Made by a program: the position numbers and the translations under genes. The notes beneath the pieces were generated by a model. That model ran no database searches. It was not told the DNA's origin and saw nothing but the letters and a program-made list of their open reading frames with translations. Below, one piece after another: positions 3,653 through 14,250 of a stretch of 64,000 bases of DNA. Positions within the stretch are counted from its first letter, which is position 1, and each line of letters opens with the position of its first letter. Source of the stretch: Massilia aquatica (GTDB taxonomy: Bacteria > Pseudomonadota > Gammaproteobacteria > Burkholderiales > Burkholderiaceae_D); contig NZ_VVIW01000003.1 of the NCBI RefSeq assembly GCF_011682045.1, forward strand, positions 310,001 to 374,000, given 5' to 3'.

Positions 3653-6325
3653 TCAGAACTTGTAGGTCGCCCTCACGTAAAACGTGCGCCCAAGCGGGTC
3701 CGTGTAGCGCGGATCGTAGCCCTGCTGGAAGGTCGTGCTCTGGACCGTGAATGGTGGATCGTCGTCGAGCAGGTTCTTGACCCCGGCGGTCACGCTGACC
3801 TTCTGGCTGGCCGTGTACGTGCCCGCCAGCGACCAGGTCGAGTAGTGTCCCACGCGGCCGGGCACAACGCCGTTTTCGTCGGGCTGGTCGTCATAGCCGG
3901 ACAGGTAGCGGTTGGACAAGGTCTCGTTGACCGGCCCCCGGGTCCAGCCCAGGGTGGCGTTGTGACGCCAGCGGAACACGGGGGTGGCATCGGCAAAGCG
4001 CCCGGCGTTGACCGTGAACGGGCCGTTGCGCTCGTTCTGGTAGTCGTAGCGGTCGACATAGGTGCCATCGACGCCGAGCGTAAAGTTACCGAGCGCGCCG
4101 CGCTGCAGGCGCCACAGCACGCCCAGGTCGACGCCACGCGTCTTGACCTCGCCCAGGTTCTGGATGATCGCCAGCACGTAGTCGAGCCGGGTGCGGGCGG
4201 CATTGTAGGAATACAGGTTCTGGTATTTCTGGTAATCGCCGAAGATCGATTCCTCCGCCAGTTCGCTGATCTGGTCCTTGAGCCGGATATCCCAGTAGTC
4301 GGCGCTCAAGGTCAGCTTGTCGGTCGGCTCGAGCACGATCCCGGCGCTGTAGGTGCGCGAGCGTTCCGGCCTGACCTGGGAATTGCCGCCACTGCGGATG
4401 TTTTGCTGCTGATCGCAGGAAATGTTGGGATTGGCCCCCGGCGCCGCTTTCCCGCCAGGGCACAGCACCGGATCGTTCCAGGAATTGCTGGTGTTGGTGG
4501 TCGTCTGCGGCCCGTGCAGGTCGTACAGGGTGGGCGCGCGGAAGCCCTTGTTGAACGAGCCGCGCAGCAGCACCTGCTTGGTGGGCTGCCAGCGCAGCGC
4601 CACCTTGGGATTGAAGCTGTGGCCGAAATCGGTGTAGTCGTCGTAGCGCGCGGCCAGGTTCACTTCCAGGTCCTTGAGGAGAGGGACATTGAGCTCGGTG
4701 AACACGGCGCCGATGTTCCGGCTGCCGGACTGGTCCTGGGAGTCGGCGGCGCCGGAGCTCGACGCCTGGCTGGCCAGGGCGCGGTTGACGCGGTAGTCGG
4801 CTTCGTCGCGCCGGAATTCGCCGCCCAGCGCGAAGCCGAGCGGGCCGGCGGGCAGGGTCATCAGTTCGCGGCTGGCCTTGAAGTCGATGGCGCCGCTCTT
4901 GATCTTGGCGCGCCGGTATTCGCCCTGTAACAGCGACTGGCGCAGGTAGTCGTTGCCGGCGCTCGTTTGTTCGCCGAAGGGGTTGAGCAAGCCGTTGCCG
5001 ACCCCCTCGATGATGCGCGCATCGACCACGTAGCCGTCGGTGAACGCGCTGCGCGCCCGCCCTACCGCATACGACAGGCCGAGGTTGTAATCCCAGCCGC
5101 CGAAGCTGCCTTCCATGCCGCCCAACAGGCGGTCGGTCAGGCTCACGTCGAGGCCTTCGCGCTTGCCGGTCACCAGCGGGCGCCAGCTGACGTCGAGCGG
5201 CTCGCCGGTGAGGCCGGCGACGGCGGGCGTGATGCCGGCGCCGGGGTAGAAGGGGCTGGTGCTGGTCATGGTCAGGCCGATGCCGGCCAGCGGCGGCGGC
5301 GCCACACGCGCTTCGTTGGTGCTGCGGCTGTGCAGGTATTCCAGGGTGCCGGTGTGGTCGGCGCCGATTTTTTTGCTGAAGCGGCCGAGGAAGGTTTCTT
5401 GCCTGGTCAGCGGGATCAGGTCGACAAACTGGGTCGAGTCGAAGCGGCAGTTCGGCGCGCCGCTCAGGTTGGGGATGGAATACGGCGGCCGGCAGCCAGT
5501 GGCAAAGCTGGGATTGCCGGAAATGCCTTTCTCGGAATAGAAGTTGGCGGGGAAGGTGGTGCCGCTGGTCTGGTTCAGGCCGCGCTCGGGACGCACCCCG
5601 GTGCGCGCGAAGTCGCGGTCGGTGGCGGTGAGGGAAGACTGGCGGTGGAAGTCGGCCACCCCGAGCAGGTTGTAGCCGTCGGTGGCCAGGTCGCCCCAGC
5701 CGCCGGTGAAGTTGATGCGCTGCTCGTCGCCGCCGCCCGAGCCGGCCGGCTGGTACGCTTCCACGCTCGCTTCCATGCCGCGGTAGGAGCGCTTGGTGAC
5801 GAAGTTGATCACGCCGCCGATGGCGTCGCTGCCGTAGATGGCCGAGGCGCCGTCGCGCAGCACCTCGACCCGTTCCAGCGCGGCCACGGGAATGATGTTC
5901 AGGTCGACCGTATCGGCGAAGAAGGGGTGGTTCGCCAGGCGCCGGCCATTGAGCAGGACCAGGGTCTTGTCGCCGCCCAGGCCGCGCAGGTCGGCGGTGG
6001 CGCGCCCGCCGGTGCCGGAGCCGACCGACTGGCTGGCGCCGGTCGAGGTCTGGTTCATGGGAATGGTGGCCAGCACCTCCTGCACGGTCGAGAGCCCCTG
6101 CTTGGCGAAGTCGTCGGCGCGCAGCGAGGTGATCGGCAGCGCGGTCTGGGCCGCCAGGCGGCGCCGGATCGAGGTGCCGACGATTTCGACTTTTTGCATG
6201 TCGCCGGAAGCGCCGGCCGGCGCCGGCGCCTGGGCCTGGGCCGGCGCAGCCAGCGCAGCGGCGCCAAGCAGGGCGCCACCGGCGCACAGACGGCGAATGG
6301 CGGCGCAGAGGGTTTTTTCAATCAT
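3653..6325 (-). CDS. TonB-dependent outer-membrane receptor (subfamily A)
   Basis: 890 aa. Signal peptide of about 32 residues ending APAQAQ, a TonB-box-like segment (QKVEIVGTSIRR), a plug domain with KTLVLLNGRRLANHP and RVEVLRDGASAIYGSDAIGGVINF, then a long beta-barrel ending in an aromatic residue (VRATYKF) as outer-membrane barrels do. It imports an unknown ligand using TonB energy. Start: GGAG lies 6 nt before the ATG. It begins 12 nt after the stop of the receptor gene at 6338–9187, so the two form one operon. Closest in-window relative is the receptor at 20022–22640 (shared TSGTTFPANFY, DPVLCPGG-type cysteine loop and GYDPR..DPLGR ending). Substrate cannot be read from sequence. Confidence 0.95.
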   Translation of the reverse strand: MIEKTLCAAIRRLCAGGALLGAAALAAPAQAQAPAPAGASGDMQKVEIVGTSIRRRLAAQTALPITSLRADDFAKQGLSTVQEVLATIPMNQTSTGASQSVGSGTGGRATADLRGLGGDKTLVLLNGRRLANHPFFADTVDLNIIPVAALERVEVLRDGASAIYGSDAIGGVINFVTKRSYRGMEASVEAYQPAGSGGGDEQRINFTGGWGDLATDGYNLLGVADFHRQSSLTATDRDFARTGVRPERGLNQTSGTTFPANFYSEKGISGNPSFATGCRPPYSIPNLSGAPNCRFDSTQFVDLIPLTRQETFLGRFSKKIGADHTGTLEYLHSRSTNEARVAPPPLAGIGLTMTSTSPFYPGAGITPAVAGLTGEPLDVSWRPLVTGKREGLDVSLTDRLLGGMEGSFGGWDYNLGLSYAVGRARSAFTDGYVVDARIIEGVGNGLLNPFGEQTSAGNDYLRQSLLQGEYRRAKIKSGAIDFKASRELMTLPAGPLGFALGGEFRRDEADYRVNRALASQASSSGAADSQDQSGSRNIGAVFTELNVPLLKDLEVNLAARYDDYTDFGHSFNPKVALRWQPTKQVLLRGSFNKGFRAPTLYDLHGPQTTTNTSNSWNDPVLCPGGKAAPGANPNISCDQQQNIRSGGNSQVRPERSRTYSAGIVLEPTDKLTLSADYWDIRLKDQISELAEESIFGDYQKYQNLYSYNAARTRLDYVLAIIQNLGEVKTRGVDLGVLWRLQRGALGNFTLGVDGTYVDRYDYQNERNGPFTVNAGRFADATPVFRWRHNATLGWTRGPVNETLSNRYLSGYDDQPDENGVVPGRVGHYSTWSLAGTYTASQKVSVTAGVKNLLDDDPPFTVQSTTFQQGYDPRYTDPLGRTFYVRATYKF

Positions 6326-6337
6326 GTGCGGCTCCGG

Positions 6338-9187
6338 TTAAAAGGTGTAACGCACGCCGGCCGTGAAGAAACGCCCCACGGCGCCGGCATAGTCGAGCGG
6401 GTTGTAGGCGGTGGCGCCGTAGGTCAGCGGATCGAGCGGGGCGATCTTGTCGAAGATGTTTTGCGCCGACCCGAACACTTCGACCCGGGTGCTCGGCTTC
6501 CAGCGGAAGGTCAGGTCGACCGTGGTGAAGGAGGGCAGTTCGCAGCCGGCCGGGGCCGCATCACCATTGGCGAAATGGCTGGCGCAACCGGCCGGGTCGT
6601 TCTTGAACAGCGTGTTCTTGAGGTCGCCCCGGTAGTTGACGTTGGCCGCCACCCGCCACGCGGCGCGCTCCCACGACAGGGAAAAATTGACCCGGTCGTC
6701 GGGCGTGCCGACGCAGTTTGTGACGTCGCAGTTGCCATGGGTGCCGGCAAAATCGCGCGAGCTGCCGTCCTGCTCGGTGCGCAGCCACTTGAACAGGTGG
6801 GTCCACCTGGCGTTCATGGTGAGCTCGCCGGTGCCGGGTCCGACGTCGAAGCGCTGGGTCAGGTCGAGGTCGGCGCCGCGTACTTCGGTGCGGGCCGAGT
6901 TGACATAGCTGGCCAGCACCGCCGTGATCGGGCCGGGGTCGCCGGGCAAGGCGGCGCTGGTCGGATCGCGCGCGATGCGCCCCGCCGCGATGGCGGCATC
7001 GCTCTGTTCCTGGTTGATTTCGTTCTTGCGCTTGATTTCCCACAGGTCGAGCGCGACATTGGTGCGCTTATAAGGGTCCCACACCATGCCGAGATTGATA
7101 CTGCGTGATTTTTCGGGCGACAGCGCCGGGTTGGGCGAGGTGATGATGGCGATCGGGGCCGGGGCACAGGCGATTTCGACCCCCAGGCCACAACGCAGTG
7201 GATCGACGGCGGTGGAAAACGCGGCCAGGCCGCCGACGCCGTTTTCAGCCGTGCTGGGGGCGCGAAAGCCGCGCGCATACGTGCCGCGCAAGGCAAAGGT
7301 GCGCACCGGCGTCCATTTCACGCCGAACTTGGGCGTGTAGGAGTCGCCGGCGTCGGTGTAGTGGTCGGCCCGCAGCGCCCCCGTCAGTTCGAGCGTCGGG
7401 TGCACCGGCGCGAGCACCTCGCCGTACAGCGCGGCCACGTTGCGCCCGCCCTTGTAGGCCGAGTAGCCGAGGCCGACGATGTTGCCGCGCCCGGTGCCGG
7501 GCACGGCTTCCAGCTCGGCTGTTTCGCGCCGGAATTCGCCGCCCAGCGCGACGCCGAGCGGCCCGCCCGGCAGTGCGGCCAGTTCGCGCGAGGCGCGCAT
7601 GTCGAGCTGGGCGATGCGGCTCCTGGCATCGTTGCGTAGCGCCGGCGCCAGCGCCGCGTACAAGGCCGGCGAATTGAGGCCGGCGTTTTCGGCGATGCGC
7701 CATACACTGCCCGGCGCCAGCGCGGCGTAGGCCGGATTGGCGCTGGCCGCCGCCACATTGGCCGGGCTCGGATTGAGCAGGGCGAACATGACGTCGCGCT
7801 GCGGGTAGCGGCTGCGTTCCTGGTCAACCTGGTTTTGCGAGAACAGCAGGGCGGTGTCGAGCTCCCACGGGCCCACGCTGCCCTTGACCCCGGCCAGCAA
7901 GCGCACGAAGTCGGAGTCGATCTGGCTCACGCGCGGGCCGACATCGGCGGCCAGGTAGCGCAGCCGCGCCGGGGTGCCGAAGTAGGGATTGTCGGGATGG
8001 CTAGCGCCCAGCATGACGTTGGCGCTGTTGACCGGCCCGGCGGGCGAGCCGACCGCGCCGCTGACCGCCGACGGCGTCGAGGAAGAGGTCGATTCGCTGC
8101 GGTACAGGTTCAGTTCGGCGTAGGTTTGCACCTCCGGCGTGGCCTGGAAGGTGGCGCGTCCGAAAAAATTGATCCGTTTCTGGCGCGGCTGGATCTGGTT
8201 GTACAGTTGCGCCGCGTCGACCAGGCAGCCGCCGCCGGGGTCGCCCTGCGGATGGCGGGTGAAGTTGGCGCAGGCCGCGCCCGGAAAGGTGCGCGTGAAA
8301 CCGGCGCCGGCCGGGTTGCCGCGGTTGTCATAGTCGAGCGTGTCGGGGTTGCGCACATTGCCGTTGATGGCGCTGCCGCCGGCATTGTTGGCGGTGATGG
8401 CGCCGGTGCCGCCGAGCGACTCCTGGGCGCTGAAGCCCCAGGGGCGCAGGTCGCCGCGTCCGATGTAGGCGCGCTCGGCGCGGTCGCGGTTCCAGATCTC
8501 GCCGCGCCGTCCGTACTCCAGGCTGGCCAGCAGGTTGTAGCGGTCGGCCTGCAGGTCGCCCTTGCCCCAGGTGAGCGAGGCGACCCCGTCGTTGCCGTCG
8601 CGCTCGCGCGACTGGCCGAAGCTGGCGCGCACGGTGGTGCCGCGGAAGTCGCGCCGCAGGATCACGTTGACCACGCCGGCGATCGCGTCCGAACCGTACA
8701 TGGCCGAGGCGCCATCCTTGAGTACTTCGACCCGCTCGACGGCGTCGGCCGGGATGATGTTCAGGTCGGAAAAGACTTTCTGGCCGTCGTCGGCCAGGCC
8801 GTACGGGGCCACCCGGCGCCCGTTGAGCAGCACCAGGGTGGAGGCGGCGCCCAGGCCGCGCAGCGAGATGCCGGAGGCGCCGCTGGCGAAGCCGCCGCCG
8901 AAGCTCGACGGCACCGAGCCCTGGTTGTCGACCGCCAGGGTTTGCAGCAGCTCGGCCACGGTGGTCTTGCCGGAACGCTCGATATCGTTGCGGTTGAGGG
9001 TGATGACGGCGGCCGCCGTTTCCCTGGTGGCGCGCGGGATCAGGGTGCCGGTGATTTCGACGCGCGGGATGGGCGCGGGCGGCGCGGCGGTTTGCGCCTG
9101 GGCGGCGCACGAGAGCAGGGCCAGGCCGGCGGCGCTGCCGCCGGCGAACAGGCACCGCAGCGAACGGGAGAGAATGGTTTCTTGCAT
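6338..9187 (-). CDS. TonB-dependent outer-membrane receptor (subfamily B)
   Basis: 949 aa from the chosen ATG at 9187. An upstream in-frame ATG at 9199 exists, but the GGAG 6 nt before 9187 decides the start. Signal peptide (MQETILSRSLRCLFAGG..., cut near AAQAQ), TonB-box-like VEITGT, plug with TLVLLNGRRVAPYGLADDGQ and VEVLKDGASAMYGSDAIAGVVN, then barrel. The C-terminal part APLDPLTYGATAYNPLDYAG and the cysteine pair in GNCDVTNCVGTP are shared with the receptor at 26959–29751, so these two are paralogues. First gene of a two-receptor operon. Ligand unknown; peptides, carbohydrates or siderophores are all possible for this broad family. Confidence 0.95.
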   Translation of the reverse strand: MQETILSRSLRCLFAGGSAAGLALLSCAAQAQTAAPPAPIPRVEITGTLIPRATRETAAAVITLNRNDIERSGKTTVAELLQTLAVDNQGSVPSSFGGGFASGASGISLRGLGAASTLVLLNGRRVAPYGLADDGQKVFSDLNIIPADAVERVEVLKDGASAMYGSDAIAGVVNVILRRDFRGTTVRASFGQSRERDGNDGVASLTWGKGDLQADRYNLLASLEYGRRGEIWNRDRAERAYIGRGDLRPWGFSAQESLGGTGAITANNAGGSAINGNVRNPDTLDYDNRGNPAGAGFTRTFPGAACANFTRHPQGDPGGGCLVDAAQLYNQIQPRQKRINFFGRATFQATPEVQTYAELNLYRSESTSSSTPSAVSGAVGSPAGPVNSANVMLGASHPDNPYFGTPARLRYLAADVGPRVSQIDSDFVRLLAGVKGSVGPWELDTALLFSQNQVDQERSRYPQRDVMFALLNPSPANVAAASANPAYAALAPGSVWRIAENAGLNSPALYAALAPALRNDARSRIAQLDMRASRELAALPGGPLGVALGGEFRRETAELEAVPGTGRGNIVGLGYSAYKGGRNVAALYGEVLAPVHPTLELTGALRADHYTDAGDSYTPKFGVKWTPVRTFALRGTYARGFRAPSTAENGVGGLAAFSTAVDPLRCGLGVEIACAPAPIAIITSPNPALSPEKSRSINLGMVWDPYKRTNVALDLWEIKRKNEINQEQSDAAIAAGRIARDPTSAALPGDPGPITAVLASYVNSARTEVRGADLDLTQRFDVGPGTGELTMNARWTHLFKWLRTEQDGSSRDFAGTHGNCDVTNCVGTPDDRVNFSLSWERAAWRVAANVNYRGDLKNTLFKNDPAGCASHFANGDAAPAGCELPSFTTVDLTFRWKPSTRVEVFGSAQNIFDKIAPLDPLTYGATAYNPLDYAGAVGRFFTAGVRYTF

Positions 9188-9343
9188 GAGAGGCTCCATA
9201 AAGCGTATGACTGCCCCGTCCGCTTCGAAGTACCATGATTTAGGTCAATCTATCTGATTGGAAAAGTTGACCGTATTTGATCTGGCGCAAAGGCCGGGCA
9301 GGGGGCTCGGTGATTGAGTTTTGCACCCGAGGCGGTCGCACAA

Positions 9344-9440: not shown

Positions 9441-9470
9441 TTGCCAAATTGCAGGAATTGTTGTTATAGT
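9441..9470 (+). promoter_or_regulatory. Sigma-70 promoter of the aroG leader
   Basis: −35 TTGCCA (9441–9446), an 18-bp spacer and −10 TATAGT (9465–9470), each hexamer 5/6 to consensus. Predicted transcript start is near 9477, about 20 nt before the leader-peptide ATG, which fits a short leader RNA. Confidence 0.65.
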
Positions 9471-9495
9471 CCTTGCACCACTTTCGGATCTTGCC

Positions 9496-9564
9496 ATGCA
9501 CAACGTCGTTTTCTTTACCTGCTACTTTTACTTTAGCAATTCCAACCCAAAGGCGGTGGAGTAG
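9496..9564 (+). CDS. Phe/Tyr-rich leader peptide of aroG (22 aa)
   Basis: A 22-codon ORF between the promoter and the terminator hairpin upstream of aroG. Residues 6–13 read FFTCYFYF, so six of eight codons are Phe or Tyr. These are end products of the pathway whose first enzyme is encoded downstream. A weak GGA lies 7 nt before the ATG. The codons for the last five residues and the stop overlap the GGCGGT segment (9552–9557), which can pair with the 5' arm of the terminator. This is the arrangement of amino-acid-biosynthesis attenuators such as pheA and trp: slow decoding of Phe/Tyr codons would favour the antiterminator. Role is inferred from layout; translation is not shown. Confidence 0.75.
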   Translation: MHNVVFFTCYFYFSNSNPKAVE

Positions 9565-9616
9565 CGGCAGGTTCACGTAGCAACGACGAGATCTTGCAAC
9601 ATCCAGAGAAACCGCC
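9552..9616 (+). promoter_or_regulatory. Predicted antiterminator pairing of the aroG attenuator
   Basis: GGCGGT (9552–9557, inside the 3' end of the leader ORF) is complementary to ACCGCC (9611–9616), the 5' arm of the terminator. A second segment, GGC-A-GGTT (9566–9573), can pair with AACC-GCC (9610–9616) with one bulge. An additional pairing, CGTCGTT (9504–9510) with AACGACG (9582–9588), would bring the arms together or act as a pause structure. These pairings exclude the terminator stem. Confidence 0.6.
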
Positions 9617-9636
9617 AGTCATGGCGGTTTTTTTTT
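9609..9636 (+). terminator. Attenuator terminator in the aroG leader
   Basis: Perfect 8-bp stem AAACCGCC (9609–9616) / GGCGGTTT (9623–9630), loop AGTCAT, and a run of nine T ending at 9636. It lies before aroG, between the leader peptide and the aroG ATG (49 nt away), so it terminates prematurely rather than after the gene. Confidence 0.9.
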
Positions 9637-9684
9637 GTCCAGCCAGTCAGAAACCAGTTTGATACACCAGCCACGGAGAACACC

Positions 9685-10746
9685 ATGCCACGCACCGACG
9701 ATCTACGCATCCGCGAAATGAAGGAACTGACGCCGCCCTCCCATCTGATCCGCGAGTTTGCCTGCGGCGAGCGCGCCGAGCAGACCGCGGCCGGCGCGCG
9801 CGTGGCGCTGCACCGCATCCTGCACGGCCAGGACGACCGCCTGATGGTAGTGATCGGCCCCTGCTCGATCCACGATACGAAGGCGGCGATGGAATATGCG
9901 CGCCGCCTGATCGGCGAGCGCGAGCGCTTCAAGGGCGAACTCGAAATCGTCATGCGCGTGTACTTCGAAAAGCCGCGCACCACGGTCGGCTGGAAGGGCT
10001 TGATCAACGATCCGTACATGGACAACAGTTTCCGCATCAACGATGGCCTGCGCATGGCGCGCGAGCTGCTGCGCGACATCAACGAGCTCGGTTTGCCGGC
10101 CGGCACCGAATACCTTGACGTGATCAGCCCGCAATACATCGCCGACCTGATCAGCTGGGGCGCGATCGGGGCCCGCACCACCGAGTCGCAGGTGCACCGC
10201 GAACTGGCGTCCGGGTTGTCGTGTCCGGTGGGCTTCAAGAATGGGACCGACGGCAATATCAAGATCGCGGTGGAAGCGATCAAGGCGGCGTCGCAGCCGC
10301 ACCACTTCCTGTCGGTGACCAAGGGCGGGCATTCGGCGATCGTGTCGACCAACGGCAATGAGGATTGCCACATTATCCTGCGCGGCGGCAAGACCCCGAA
10401 CTACGATGCCGCCAGCGTGGACCTGGCCTGCCAGCAGATCGCCGCGCAGGGCCTGGACGCGCGCCTGATGATCGACGCTTCGCACGCCAACAGTTCCAAG
10501 AAGCCGGAAAACCAGGTGCCGGTATGCGCCGATATCGCCGCCCAGGTGGCCGGGGGCGATGGCCGCATCGTCGGCGTGATGGTGGAGTCGCACCTGGTGG
10601 CCGGGCGCCAGGACCTGGTGCCGGGCAAGGAACTGGTGTACGGCCAGTCGATCACCGATGGCTGCATCGATTGGGACAGCAGCGTGGCCGTGCTCGAAGG
10701 CCTGGCCGAGGCGGTGCGCCAGCGCCGCCAGCGCGCGCCGGCCTGA
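9685..10746 (+). CDS. aroG: 3-deoxy-7-phosphoheptulonate (DAHP) synthase, class I
   Basis: 353 aa, the usual length of AroF/AroG/AroH enzymes. It condenses phosphoenolpyruvate with erythrose-4-phosphate, the committed step of the shikimate pathway, in the cytoplasm. Family signatures are VVIGPCSIHD (metal-binding Cys), RVYFEKPRTTVGWKG, GARTTESQVHRELASG, GFKNGTDG, CHIILRGG and DASHANSSK. The N-terminal DDLRIREMKEL resembles E. coli AroG (Phe-sensitive) and suggests an intact feedback-sensing N-terminus, but the inhibitor cannot be assigned with certainty. GGAG lies 6 nt before the ATG. Transcription appears controlled by the Phe/Tyr leader attenuator immediately upstream. Confidence 0.97.
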   Translation: MPRTDDLRIREMKELTPPSHLIREFACGERAEQTAAGARVALHRILHGQDDRLMVVIGPCSIHDTKAAMEYARRLIGERERFKGELEIVMRVYFEKPRTTVGWKGLINDPYMDNSFRINDGLRMARELLRDINELGLPAGTEYLDVISPQYIADLISWGAIGARTTESQVHRELASGLSCPVGFKNGTDGNIKIAVEAIKAASQPHHFLSVTKGGHSAIVSTNGNEDCHIILRGGKTPNYDAASVDLACQQIAAQGLDARLMIDASHANSSKKPENQVPVCADIAAQVAGGDGRIVGVMVESHLVAGRQDLVPGKELVYGQSITDGCIDWDSSVAVLEGLAEAVRQRRQRAPA

Positions 10747-11358: not shown

Positions 11359-14250
11359 ATGATGACAGAAACCGTTTTATCGCGTTCACTGCGCCTGGTC
11401 TTTTCGGGCGGTATCGCAGTCGGCCTCGGCCTTGCGGCATTGCCAGCCGTCGCCCAGACCGCTTCACAGGACAATTCGATGCAGCGCGTCGAGATCACCG
11501 GCTCGTCGATCAAACGCGTCGCCGCTGAAACCGCGCTGCCTGTCACCATTCTTAAACGCGAAGACATCGAGCGCACCGGCGCCACCTCCGCCCAAGACCT
11601 CGTCAACCTGATTCCGGGTAACTTCGGCGGCGGCGTCACCGCCAACAACGTCGGCGCCTCCGGCGTGCCGTCGACCGCCAACCTGCGCGCCCTCGGCGCC
11701 CGCTACACGCTGGTGCTGCTGAACGGCCGCCGCGTGGCCAACTATGCGGTCGGCAACAACCCGGTCGACCTGAACTCGATTCCGCTGTCGGCCATCGAAC
11801 GCATCGAAGTGCTGCGCGACGGCGCCTCGGCCGTGTACGGCGCCGATGCGGTGGCCGGCGTGATCAACTTCATCCTGCGCAAGGACTACAAGGGCGTGGA
11901 AATGTCCGCCTACAAGACCCACGTCGACCAGGGTGGCGGCAACACCAAGAGCTTCAATATCACGGCCGGCTTCGGCGACCTGGCGACCGACCGCTTCAAC
12001 GTGCTGGTCAGCGCCAACCACGAAGAGAACGAAAAACTGCTGGCGTCCGAGCGCAGCTTTTCGACGACCTCGGTGCGTCCCGACCTGGGCATCAACAAGT
12101 CTTCGCCGCGTAACGGCGTGCCCAACCTGACCTTCATCGATTCGCTCGGCAACAAGTACGTGGGCGTCAACCCGTTCCGCTACAACGGTTGCAAGAACGA
12201 CGAATTCAGCCTGGTGGTTAACAGCGAAAAAGGCTGCGGCACCGACTACGTCAAGTACATCGACCTGGTTCCTGAAGCCAAGCACGACAATATCGTCACA
12301 CGCGGCGTGTTCAAGGTCAGCGACAGCCTGGAACTGTTCGCCGAAGCGGCTTACACCAAGGACAAGATGATCGCGGCGTCCTCGCCGGCGCCGTATACCG
12401 AGCCGATGAACTACCCGGTCAAAGGCCGCTTTTATCCGAAAACCATCAAGCTGCCGAAAGGCTTGAAACTGCCTGCCGGCTACAAAATGCCGAATGGCAC
12501 TGTTACGACTGCGGAAAGCGTTCTCGCGGCCGATATGGACGTCACCCCGACCGGTCCGCTCTCGGGTACCTGGCGTACCGTCGCCGGCGGCGGCCGCAAC
12601 GACCTGACCAAGACCGAGAACACCCGTGTCGTGGTGGGCGCCAAGGGCAATATGGTCGGCTGGGATTACGAAACGGCATTGACCTATGGCAAAAACGAAG
12701 TCGAAATCAGCTTCGGCCCAGGCAAGTTCAGCTACGCCAAACTGCGGCCGCTGGTCGATTCCGGCGAGATCAATGTGTTCGGCACCCAGGATGCGGCCAG
12801 TCTGGCAGCCTTGCTCGGTTCGCAGCTGAGCGGCTTCGAAAACGGCGGGGTGTCGACCTCGAAAGAGTTCGATTTCCGTATGTCCAAGGAAATCTTCAAC
12901 CTGCCGGCCGGTGCGGTCGGCTTCTCGGTCGGTACCTCCTACCGTACTGAAAAGCTGAGCCAGGTATCGTCCGATGTGCTCAAGAACGGTGACGAAGTCG
13001 GCGGCGCTGGCGAAATTCCTGGCGTGACCGGCGACCGTAAAGTGTTCGGCCTGTTCTCGGAAGTTGTTGTTCCTGTCGTTAAGGACCTGGAACTGACCGC
13101 CGCTGCGCGCTACGACAAGTACAAGAACGGTTTCGGCACCGAATTCGACAATCTGAGCCCGAAACTTGGCTTCACCTACCGTCCGAGCGCCATGATCATG
13201 GCGCGCGGTTCGGTGGCCCGCGGCTTCCGCGCCCCGACCCTGGTCGACAACCTCAATCCAAAGGCGCTGAACAACACCTCGTCGAATTTCAACGATCCGA
13301 TCCGCTGCCCGAATGGCGTGGCGATCAACGACACGGTGGGCGAACGCCAGGATGAGTGCTCGGTCCAGCTCGACACCCAGAACAGCGGCAATCCTGATCT
13401 GAAGCCGGAAAAATCGAAGCAGTACACCCTGGGCCTGGTATTCCAGCCGACCTCGACCATCAGCGGTTCGATCGATTACTGGAACGTGAAGATCGACAAG
13501 TCGATCAACGCGATGTCGGAAAATACCGTGTTCGGCGATCCGGTTGCCAACATCAACCAGTTCTACCGCTACGATCCGGTAATCGAAGACAAGTATTTGA
13601 AAGACAAAGTAGACGCGGAAAAGCTTAATCTGCCTCCGCCGCCAGTGCCGGTCGGCGCCAAGAAGCTTCCTTACAAGGCCAGCACCAACAAGGACTTCCC
13701 GCTCGCCTACGTGGCACTGCCACGCGTGAACACCGGCAAGTTCTACGCCGCCGGTGTCGATTTGAACCTGAACTACCGCCAGAAGTTCGGCGACATGGGC
13801 ACGGTCGGCGCGAACTACGATTCGACCTACTACAGCAAGCATGGCTACCAGTACGAGGGCGAAAAGGAAGTCAGCGACCTGGGCAAATTCAAGGACTTCG
13901 GCCCGACCCCGCGCTATCGCCACACCCTGGGCCTGACGTACGGCCTCGGCCAGTGGAGCGGCTCGGTCACCCACAACTACACCAAAGGGTACTGGGACTA
14001 CACCGATCCTTCGCTGATCGCCGCCGACTACCCGGAACTGCGCAAGGTCGGCAACTACTCGACCTTCGATGCCACCATTGGCTGGAAACCGATGAAGAAC
14101 CTGAGCATGACCTTTGGTGTCAAGAACATCGCCGACGAAGACCCACCATCGTCGCGTAACGGCGCCAACTTCCAGGTCGGCTACGATGCGTCGTTCACCA
14201 ACCCGCTGGGCCGCACCTTTTACGCACGTCTGAACTACAAGTTCCTGTAA
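11359..14250 (+). CDS. TonB-dependent outer-membrane receptor (subfamily A, divergent)
   Basis: 963 aa. Signal peptide ending AVAQ, TonB-box-like QRVEITGSSIKR, plug with YTLVLLNGRRVANYAVG and IEVLRDGASAVYGADAVAGVINF, then a barrel ending LGRTFYARLNYKFL. It shares with the other four receptors the sequence DPIRCPNG...C, a probable disulfide-bonded surface loop, and the N-P-x-L-x-P-E-K-S barrel motif. It is the only rightward receptor here and stands alone: its own AT-rich upstream region and a strong terminator follow. Codon usage is less extremely GC-rich than that of neighbours. Ligand unknown. Confidence 0.95.
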   Translation: MMTETVLSRSLRLVFSGGIAVGLGLAALPAVAQTASQDNSMQRVEITGSSIKRVAAETALPVTILKREDIERTGATSAQDLVNLIPGNFGGGVTANNVGASGVPSTANLRALGARYTLVLLNGRRVANYAVGNNPVDLNSIPLSAIERIEVLRDGASAVYGADAVAGVINFILRKDYKGVEMSAYKTHVDQGGGNTKSFNITAGFGDLATDRFNVLVSANHEENEKLLASERSFSTTSVRPDLGINKSSPRNGVPNLTFIDSLGNKYVGVNPFRYNGCKNDEFSLVVNSEKGCGTDYVKYIDLVPEAKHDNIVTRGVFKVSDSLELFAEAAYTKDKMIAASSPAPYTEPMNYPVKGRFYPKTIKLPKGLKLPAGYKMPNGTVTTAESVLAADMDVTPTGPLSGTWRTVAGGGRNDLTKTENTRVVVGAKGNMVGWDYETALTYGKNEVEISFGPGKFSYAKLRPLVDSGEINVFGTQDAASLAALLGSQLSGFENGGVSTSKEFDFRMSKEIFNLPAGAVGFSVGTSYRTEKLSQVSSDVLKNGDEVGGAGEIPGVTGDRKVFGLFSEVVVPVVKDLELTAAARYDKYKNGFGTEFDNLSPKLGFTYRPSAMIMARGSVARGFRAPTLVDNLNPKALNNTSSNFNDPIRCPNGVAINDTVGERQDECSVQLDTQNSGNPDLKPEKSKQYTLGLVFQPTSTISGSIDYWNVKIDKSINAMSENTVFGDPVANINQFYRYDPVIEDKYLKDKVDAEKLNLPPPPVPVGAKKLPYKASTNKDFPLAYVALPRVNTGKFYAAGVDLNLNYRQKFGDMGTVGANYDSTYYSKHGYQYEGEKEVSDLGKFKDFGPTPRYRHTLGLTYGLGQWSGSVTHNYTKGYWDYTDPSLIAADYPELRKVGNYSTFDATIGWKPMKNLSMTFGVKNIADEDPPSSRNGANFQVGYDASFTNPLGRTFYARLNYKFL

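Follow-up and report, generated by a model that had tools for sequence, protein, structure and literature searches.

What is known of the control of DAHP synthase, which catalyses the first step of the shikimate pathway, comes mostly from E. coli, where TyrR, TrpR and feedback inhibition act on it. The E. coli pheA and pheST leaders are classical cases of Phe attenuation, with a leader peptide, an antiterminator and a terminator. Attenuation at aroR-aroF of C. glutamicum was reportedly described by Neshat et al. in 2014. According to the relevant part of a review, the C. glutamicum aroR leader, with Phe-Tyr-Phe, precedes the DAHP synthase gene aroF and stalls ribosomes under Phe limitation, Tyr availability is without effect on this operon leader, and the mechanism is established for E. 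coli trp and pheA (PMC11802643). The C. glutamicum aroF leader was reported in 2013, as given in an excerpt of PMC4046766. Ribosome-mediated control of a DAHP synthase thus has precedent in the aroR-aroF leader. An excerpt of a further study proposes a motif, uORFC-13-1, for Acholeplasma aroF from 24 sequences, all from Acholeplasma or environmental, and mentions beside it an older hypothesis on E. coli aroF (PMC8632094).

We analysed a window, a 64,000-nucleotide stretch of the Massilia aquatica genome, in which the region upstream of aroG is very probably a ribosome-mediated transcription attenuator controlling that gene. Compared by description, the locus is like aroR-aroF in placing a Phe-Tyr-Phe leader peptide ahead of a DAHP synthase gene, whereas C. 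glutamicum belongs to the Actinobacteria and has one FYF, and the window has FF..YFYF together with GGCGGU/ACCGCC. It also resembles uORFC-13-1, likewise compared by description and with the excerpted account, in combining a uORF holding at least one Phe codon with a terminator upstream of a DAHP synthase gene. The pheA and pheST leaders (Rfam Phe_leader, RF01859) control other genes, and RF01859 scored 20 bits against the window, over 9574-9637 only, where its gathering score is 55. An Rfam identity was rejected, all five matches to the window lying below the gathering score. Like the putative window leader, TyrR and TrpR of E. coli exert end-product control on the amount of DAHP synthase; unlike it, they are DNA-binding repressors, and they were not found above cut-off in 31 genomes.

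The aroG leader is new, widespread and unusually well conserved, within a class of attenuators that is already known; it is taken as new because no Rfam family matched at threshold and no description was found in the literature searched. A term search of the main text of Naville and Gautheret 2010 (PMC2965389) returned neither aroG nor DAHP, the tables in the available part of PMC1173090 list putative attenuators for tyrA operons only, Bordetella among them, and the portions of PMC4833913 and PMC12125101 at hand hold nothing on attenuation by an aroG leader. We recognised no description of an aroG leader in the order, for which subscription papers, supplements and older attenuator databases may contain predictions. 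With neither repressor found above cut-off, the leader suggests, in a form open to experiment, how the amount of DAHP synthase may be adjusted in many bacteria of a large order. Annotators would gain a new RNA family from it, and strain engineers a target, since deleting it should increase flux to aromatics.

Organization of the aroG leader

The elements of the locus, all on the forward strand, are as follows.

9441..9470, + strand: sigma-70-like promoter, TTGCCA-18 nt-TATAGT, with 10 of 12 consensus matches
9496..9564, + strand: leader ORF of 22 codons, MHNVVFFTCYFYFSNSNPKAVE, ATG at 9496 and TAG at 9562-9564, read from the sequence
9511..9534, + strand: putative regulatory codons F6 F7 T C Y10 F11 Y12 F13, read from the sequence
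9540..9547, + strand: region 1, UUCCAACC, likely protector arm pairing with GGUGGA 9555-9560 (fold; UUCCARCC conserved in alignment A1)
9552..9557, + strand: region 2, GGCGGU, antiterminator 5' arm, in codons 19-21 (invariant columns in the 55 rows of A1)
9558..9604, + strand: inner part of the antiterminator, GGA 9558-9560 / UCC 9602-9604 around a small hairpin (folds of the 2-to-3 segment)
9605..9636, + strand: intrinsic terminator hairpin (3:4) and nine T (fold, terminator scan)
9611..9616, + strand: region 3, ACCGCC, common to the antiterminator and the terminator 5' arm (alignment, arm table)
9685..10746, + strand: aroG, the controlled gene (NCBIfam AroG equivalog), with a Shine-Dalgarno-like GGAGA at 9675-9679

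The first-pass annotation had described a good sigma-70 promoter, a 22-codon ORF with FFTCYFYF, a terminator with nine T and a GGCGGT pairing with the terminator's 5' arm, and each of these observations is confirmed as real. Promoter-like sites occurred at a mean of 0.3 in shuffles of the 601-base region. Across 94 leaders, the window counted, the top-scoring promoter-like site ahead of the leader ATG reached at least 9/12 in 43, versus 38 of 940 shuffles, which were mononucleotide shuffles only. The Shine-Dalgarno sequence before the leader start is weak, with no match in 49 of 95 leaders, which counts against attenuation.

The fold of the 163-nt leader RNA has a z of -4.56, and none of 200 shuffles was as stable. 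In this fold the terminator is a 13-pair hairpin at 9605-9634, with region 4, GGCGGU, at 9623-9628 and T9 at 9628-9636; a simple terminator scan missed it, and the fold and a second scan recovered it. A 23-base piece of the terminator occurs once in the genome, allowing up to 3 mismatches. The GGCGGT at 9552-9557 is exactly complementary to ACCGCC 9611-9616; in the window alone, this 2:3 match is borderline against shuffles (p 0.06) and not significant by itself, so the case for an attenuator rests on the relatives. Beyond the earlier annotation, the folds add the likely protector pairing UUCCAACC/GGUGGA and a GGA/UCC helix inside the antiterminator, which, with the small hairpin, extends the GGCGGU/ACCGCC stem in the window and many relatives. 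The leader stop codon, 9562-9564, falls inside this inner part.

Just 3' of the stop, at 9565-9580, a sequence close to GCGGNNGGUUCACG is kept in many Oxalobacteraceae-type rows even though the stop codon shifts; its conservation may reflect the antiterminator inner hairpin or something else.

The aroG product passes the AroG equivalog cut-off of NCBIfam NF006723 (584.7 bits versus 568), and its best solved structure matches are Phe-regulated DAHP synthases. A Ser or a Gly at the FLS/FLG position decides between Phe and Tyr sensitivity; in the alignment to a Phe-regulated structure, which we take to be E. coli AroG, FLS lies opposite FLS, and HHFLSVT is found in 80 of 80 AroG relatives. Judged by its sequence, the window AroG is an enzyme of the Phe-regulated type. 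Three large ORFs flanking aroG, at 3653-6325 (-), 6338-9199 (-) and 11359-14250 (+), resemble related TonB-dependent receptors by eye.

Conservation of the leader among relatives

We compared the window with a named set, the 80 highest-ranking aroG loci out of at least 590 in titled genome records, which includes Massilia, Janthinobacterium, Rugamonas, Duganella, Collimonas, Herminiimonas, Noviherbaspirillum, Undibacterium, Paraburkholderia, Caballeronia and Burkholderia. Aligning the relatives, a check proposed earlier, largely bore the reading out: an ATG ORF rich in aromatic codons and a CCGCC...GGCGGT-type terminator precede aroG in 79 of the 80. The remaining locus, L027, has neither leader ORF nor terminator, and its upstream sequence reads as coding, presumably (by eye) for a TldD-like protein. 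With the window counted (n=80), the leader ORFs hold F and Y in 46 cases, F, Y and W in 32, and F and W in 2.

In the 55 aligned Oxalobacteraceae-type rows (A1, from which the near-duplicates L006, L021 and L055, and L027, are omitted) GGCGGT never changes and ACCGCC hardly does. Peptides differ in the Burkholderia type (A2, 22 rows), of which MSAKFYFYFFWYLRPLADREGC and MFATKFYFYFFWYLRPLADREG are examples, and there CUGGCGG goes with, mostly, CCGCCAG. A strict detector, which requires an ORF 8-45 codons long that contains four or more aromatic residues, a terminator 5-80 nt further on and at least 6 complementary bases, was positive at 76 of 81 loci (the 80 named and the window). The five misses are L027, L051, L063, L067 and L079, all of which except L027 have ORF and terminator. 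None of 157 reverse complements and none of 785 dinucleotide shuffles was positive (0/942 together), so the three-part layout is more than chance.

Before region 2, F/Y/W codons make up 683 of 1510 codons (45%) in 95 leaders, versus 1277 of 27,809 (4.6%) in aroG of the 80 named loci. These codons hold their positions while their identity drifts among F, Y, W and H. The distance from the start of the last aromatic codon to region 2 is 8-30 nt; it falls within 12-20 nt in 82 of the 95 leaders and is 20 nt in the window. Phe is written 323 times as TTT and 117 times as TTC in the leaders, and 93 times as TTT and 427 times as TTC in aroG.

Antiterminator pairing and a predicted mechanism

Conserved, covarying stems had also been proposed as a check. 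The GGCGGT/ACCGCC pairing is invariant or nearly so in 55 rows; a core that varies so little shows few joint base changes, and since both the detector and the arm table favour loci that keep the 2:3 core, covariation there is limited. Run on plain MAFFT alignments, RNAalifold recovered the terminator and both 2:3 arms with almost no covariation score, since the core is invariant and the middle gapped. Beside the core, joint changes in all three arms were seen: position -1 in regions 2-3-4 reads T-A-T (36), A-T-A (5) or C-G-C (2), that is 43 of 94 leaders, in an arm table that covers 94 of the 95 (L094 was dropped) and has core conservation partly built into it. At the same position A-A-T, in 28 of 94, breaks 2:3, and about half of the leaders are unpaired in 2:3 there, which counts against the pairing.

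In 33 of 53 leaders the 2:3 duplex was stronger than in shuffles (p<=0.05); the sample comprised 28 model matches, 19 order-wide leader loci and 6 chosen rows, and omitted the strict positives L085, L087, L088 and L089; for the 19 order-wide loci the test is circular because 15 came from the strict detector. The model matches alone gave 16 of 28, which are not fully independent either, the covariance model containing the GGCGGT columns. The inner segment slightly exceeded shuffles in stability in 57 Oxalobacteraceae-type leaders (mean z -1.1) and in 19 others (-0.81), and hardly did so in the 19 Burkholderia-type ones (-0.2).

We modelled the effect of a ribosome with a static mask of -16 to +12 around the A site, an assumed footprint that yields an equilibrium sketch and not a kinetic one. 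Before region 4 is made, the predicted 2:3 pairing averaged 0.22 over 95 leaders without a ribosome, 0.24 with a ribosome at the stop codon, and 0.67 with a ribosome on the aromatic codons (best codon 0.87). For the window the values were 0.00 without a ribosome, 0.00 at the stop and a mean of 0.54 on the aromatic codons (best 0.86); by codon they were 0.85 at F7, 0.50 at Y10, 0.04 at F11, 0.42 at Y12 and 0.86 at F13, so the response is not clean. Without a ribosome, 2:3 pairing averaged 0.04 in the 57 Oxalobacteraceae-type leaders and 0.64 in the 19 Burkholderia-type leaders, the latter counting against attenuation. In this static-mask model a ribosome at the stop silences the antiterminator in the window and in 69 of 95 leaders; it does not in the other 26, where region 2 begins 21-33 nt ahead of the stop codon, again a point against.

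Of the features expected of an attenuator, we thus found a short ORF enriched in codons for a pathway product, an intrinsic terminator between this ORF and the structural gene and, in silico, an antiterminator that excludes the terminator and whose 5' arm comes after the regulatory codons (window alone, p 0.06). From these parts, their conservation and their mutually exclusive pairings we infer the following switch. Transcription would start near 9477, as placed by the promoter, and a ribosome would then translate the leader ORF. If Phe-tRNA (and Tyr-tRNA) is plentiful, the ribosome would reach the stop codon and cover region 2, upon which the terminator (3:4) would form and RNA polymerase would stop near 9636. 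When charged Phe-tRNA, and probably also Tyr-tRNA, runs short, the ribosome would stall at the FF...YFYF codons and open the protector pairing (1:2), leaving region 2 free; GGCGGU would then pair with the terminator's ACCGCC, aroG would be transcribed and more DAHP synthase could be made. Stalling that exposes GGCGGT and lets the antiterminator form had been put forward by the first-pass annotation, and the ORF, terminator and pairing conserved in relatives support it.

Distribution in the family, order and class

In the window's family, a strict sequence pattern occurred in 67 of 195 genomes, and 5 of 5 loci checked precede AroG. A covariance model built from A1, which contains the GGCGGT columns, matched 181 of the 195 (E<=1e-5), some of which may be among the genomes used for the model, and 14 had no match at this threshold. 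Homologues lacking the features, named beforehand as evidence to the contrary, do occur: L027 and L086, both of the window's own lineage, have no leader in the upstream sequence inspected, and the 14 unmatched genomes likewise count against the reading. Set against these are the 79 of 80 named loci that keep the features.

In the order, the model matched 55 of 300 genomes (E<=1e-3; E-values rough). Of these matches 33 were fetched: 28 precede aroG and all of these have an ORF rich in aromatic codons (MSQRFYFFFYFWSYLSHRRAK and MTRRFFFFFYFPCLLADGTG are examples), and five (L219, L230, L231, L235 and L237) have no aroG downstream and resemble other terminators. A separate order-wide set comprised 76 AroG loci at E<=1e-150 from 150 genomes, with 400-500 bases upstream inspected. 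The strict detector was positive at 19 of the 76; four more leaders (L109, L114, L124, L136) were added by eye because the terminator search misses some long-loop hairpins, as in L114, giving 23. At the other 53 no leader was found in the 400-500 bases inspected, which counts against attenuation. A hand count puts leaders in 14 or more families of the order, among them that of the window. The leader is widespread but far from universal in the order.

Class-wide, 93 of 185 genomes had an AroG match, and the best 29 loci besides the window's own were looked at, of which 28 were judged, the misplaced L187 being left out. Outside the order, a leader was found at 2 of these 28, both in one family. 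In these two loci, L161 and L164, a leader like that of the window stands in front of aroG (FYFWYYFPKPLAEEG in L161), and gene and leader were possibly transferred together. A protein search of a plasmid collection gave 83 records with an AroG relative. In the leaderless L143, L147, L154 and L156, the DAHP synthase gene comes after a gene ending ...KKQYAD, which looks to us like dksA.

Amino acids probably sensed and alternative readings

The leader codons point to attenuation by Phe, probably by Tyr as well and perhaps, in some lineages, by Trp. A narrower version, in which only Phe shortage acts and the Tyr codons are tolerated, being pyrimidine-rich and unstructured too, has a real if lesser chance of being right. 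Phe occurs before region 2 in all 95 leaders and Tyr in 90, the enzyme is of the Phe-regulated type by its best solved matches and by HHFLSVT in 80/80, and the C. glutamicum precedent, in the part of the review that treats it, responds to Phe and not to Tyr (PMC11802643). Against it, Tyr is kept at fixed places; for example, 49 of 57 Oxalobacteraceae-type leaders have Y at position -7.

A wider version, with the leader a common-pathway attenuator that responds to Phe, Tyr and Trp alike wherever a lineage has Trp codons, is slightly less likely still. AroG makes the precursor common to all three, and 39 of 95 leaders, including 19 of 19 of the Burkholderia type (FYFYFFW), have Trp ahead of region 2. 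The window leader, however, has no Trp codon, and the Burkholderia-type W stands just behind the cluster and is followed by His in 10 of 19 and Tyr in 9 of 19. In L064, one Burkholderia-type leader with modelled values per codon, 2:3 pairing was 1.0 at Y6, F7 and Y8, but 0.02 at F9, 0.00 at F10 and 0.00 at W11.

That the hairpin is a constitutive partial terminator, with unregulated read-through and an ORF that is incidental or encodes a small protein, we regard as very improbable: hairpins without an aromatic ORF do lie upstream of some DAHP synthase genes (L143, L154, L156 and L158 are examples), but the aromatic ORF and the complementary segment are found again, with different peptides, across many families, a layout that the 942 controls did not reproduce once. 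Barely credible is a metabolite- or protein-binding RNA of the riboswitch type with no ribosome as sensor, for which the conserved GCGGNNGGUUCACG-like stretch after the stop in many Oxalobacteraceae-type rows, with no clear coding reason, could speak, but no Rfam family scored above threshold and the recurring features are codons, peptide and RNA varying between families while the aromatic content stays.

Repressors and paralogues

In the 31 genomes, the window's own included, neither TrpR nor the TyrR helix-turn-helix was found above cut-off; weak TrpR matches of 23 bits (cut-off 27 bits) occurred in 13 of them, the window's own genome among these. The order studied here is classed as Betaproteobacteria in the scheme of the survey cited next. 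In the part of that survey at hand, TrpR and TyrR are absent outside Gammaproteobacteria within the set studied (PMC5343134). We speculate, tentatively and as something rather unlikely, that an ancestral Burkholderiales DAHP synthase attenuator, in many lineages reading all three aromatics through an FYW-rich leader, fills the role that TyrR/TrpR have in other Gammaproteobacteria, as the chief control point at the start of the shikimate pathway.

The genome has two other DAHP synthase genes (L002 and L003), and their upstream stretches, inspected by eye, show no such leader. The paralogue L002 has FLG. The stretch upstream of L003, the third DAHP synthase gene, is AT-rich at about 1200-1300 and contains GATAAGCATT-like repeats, which remind us of an iron (Fur) box; L003 is perhaps a siderophore-linked isozyme.
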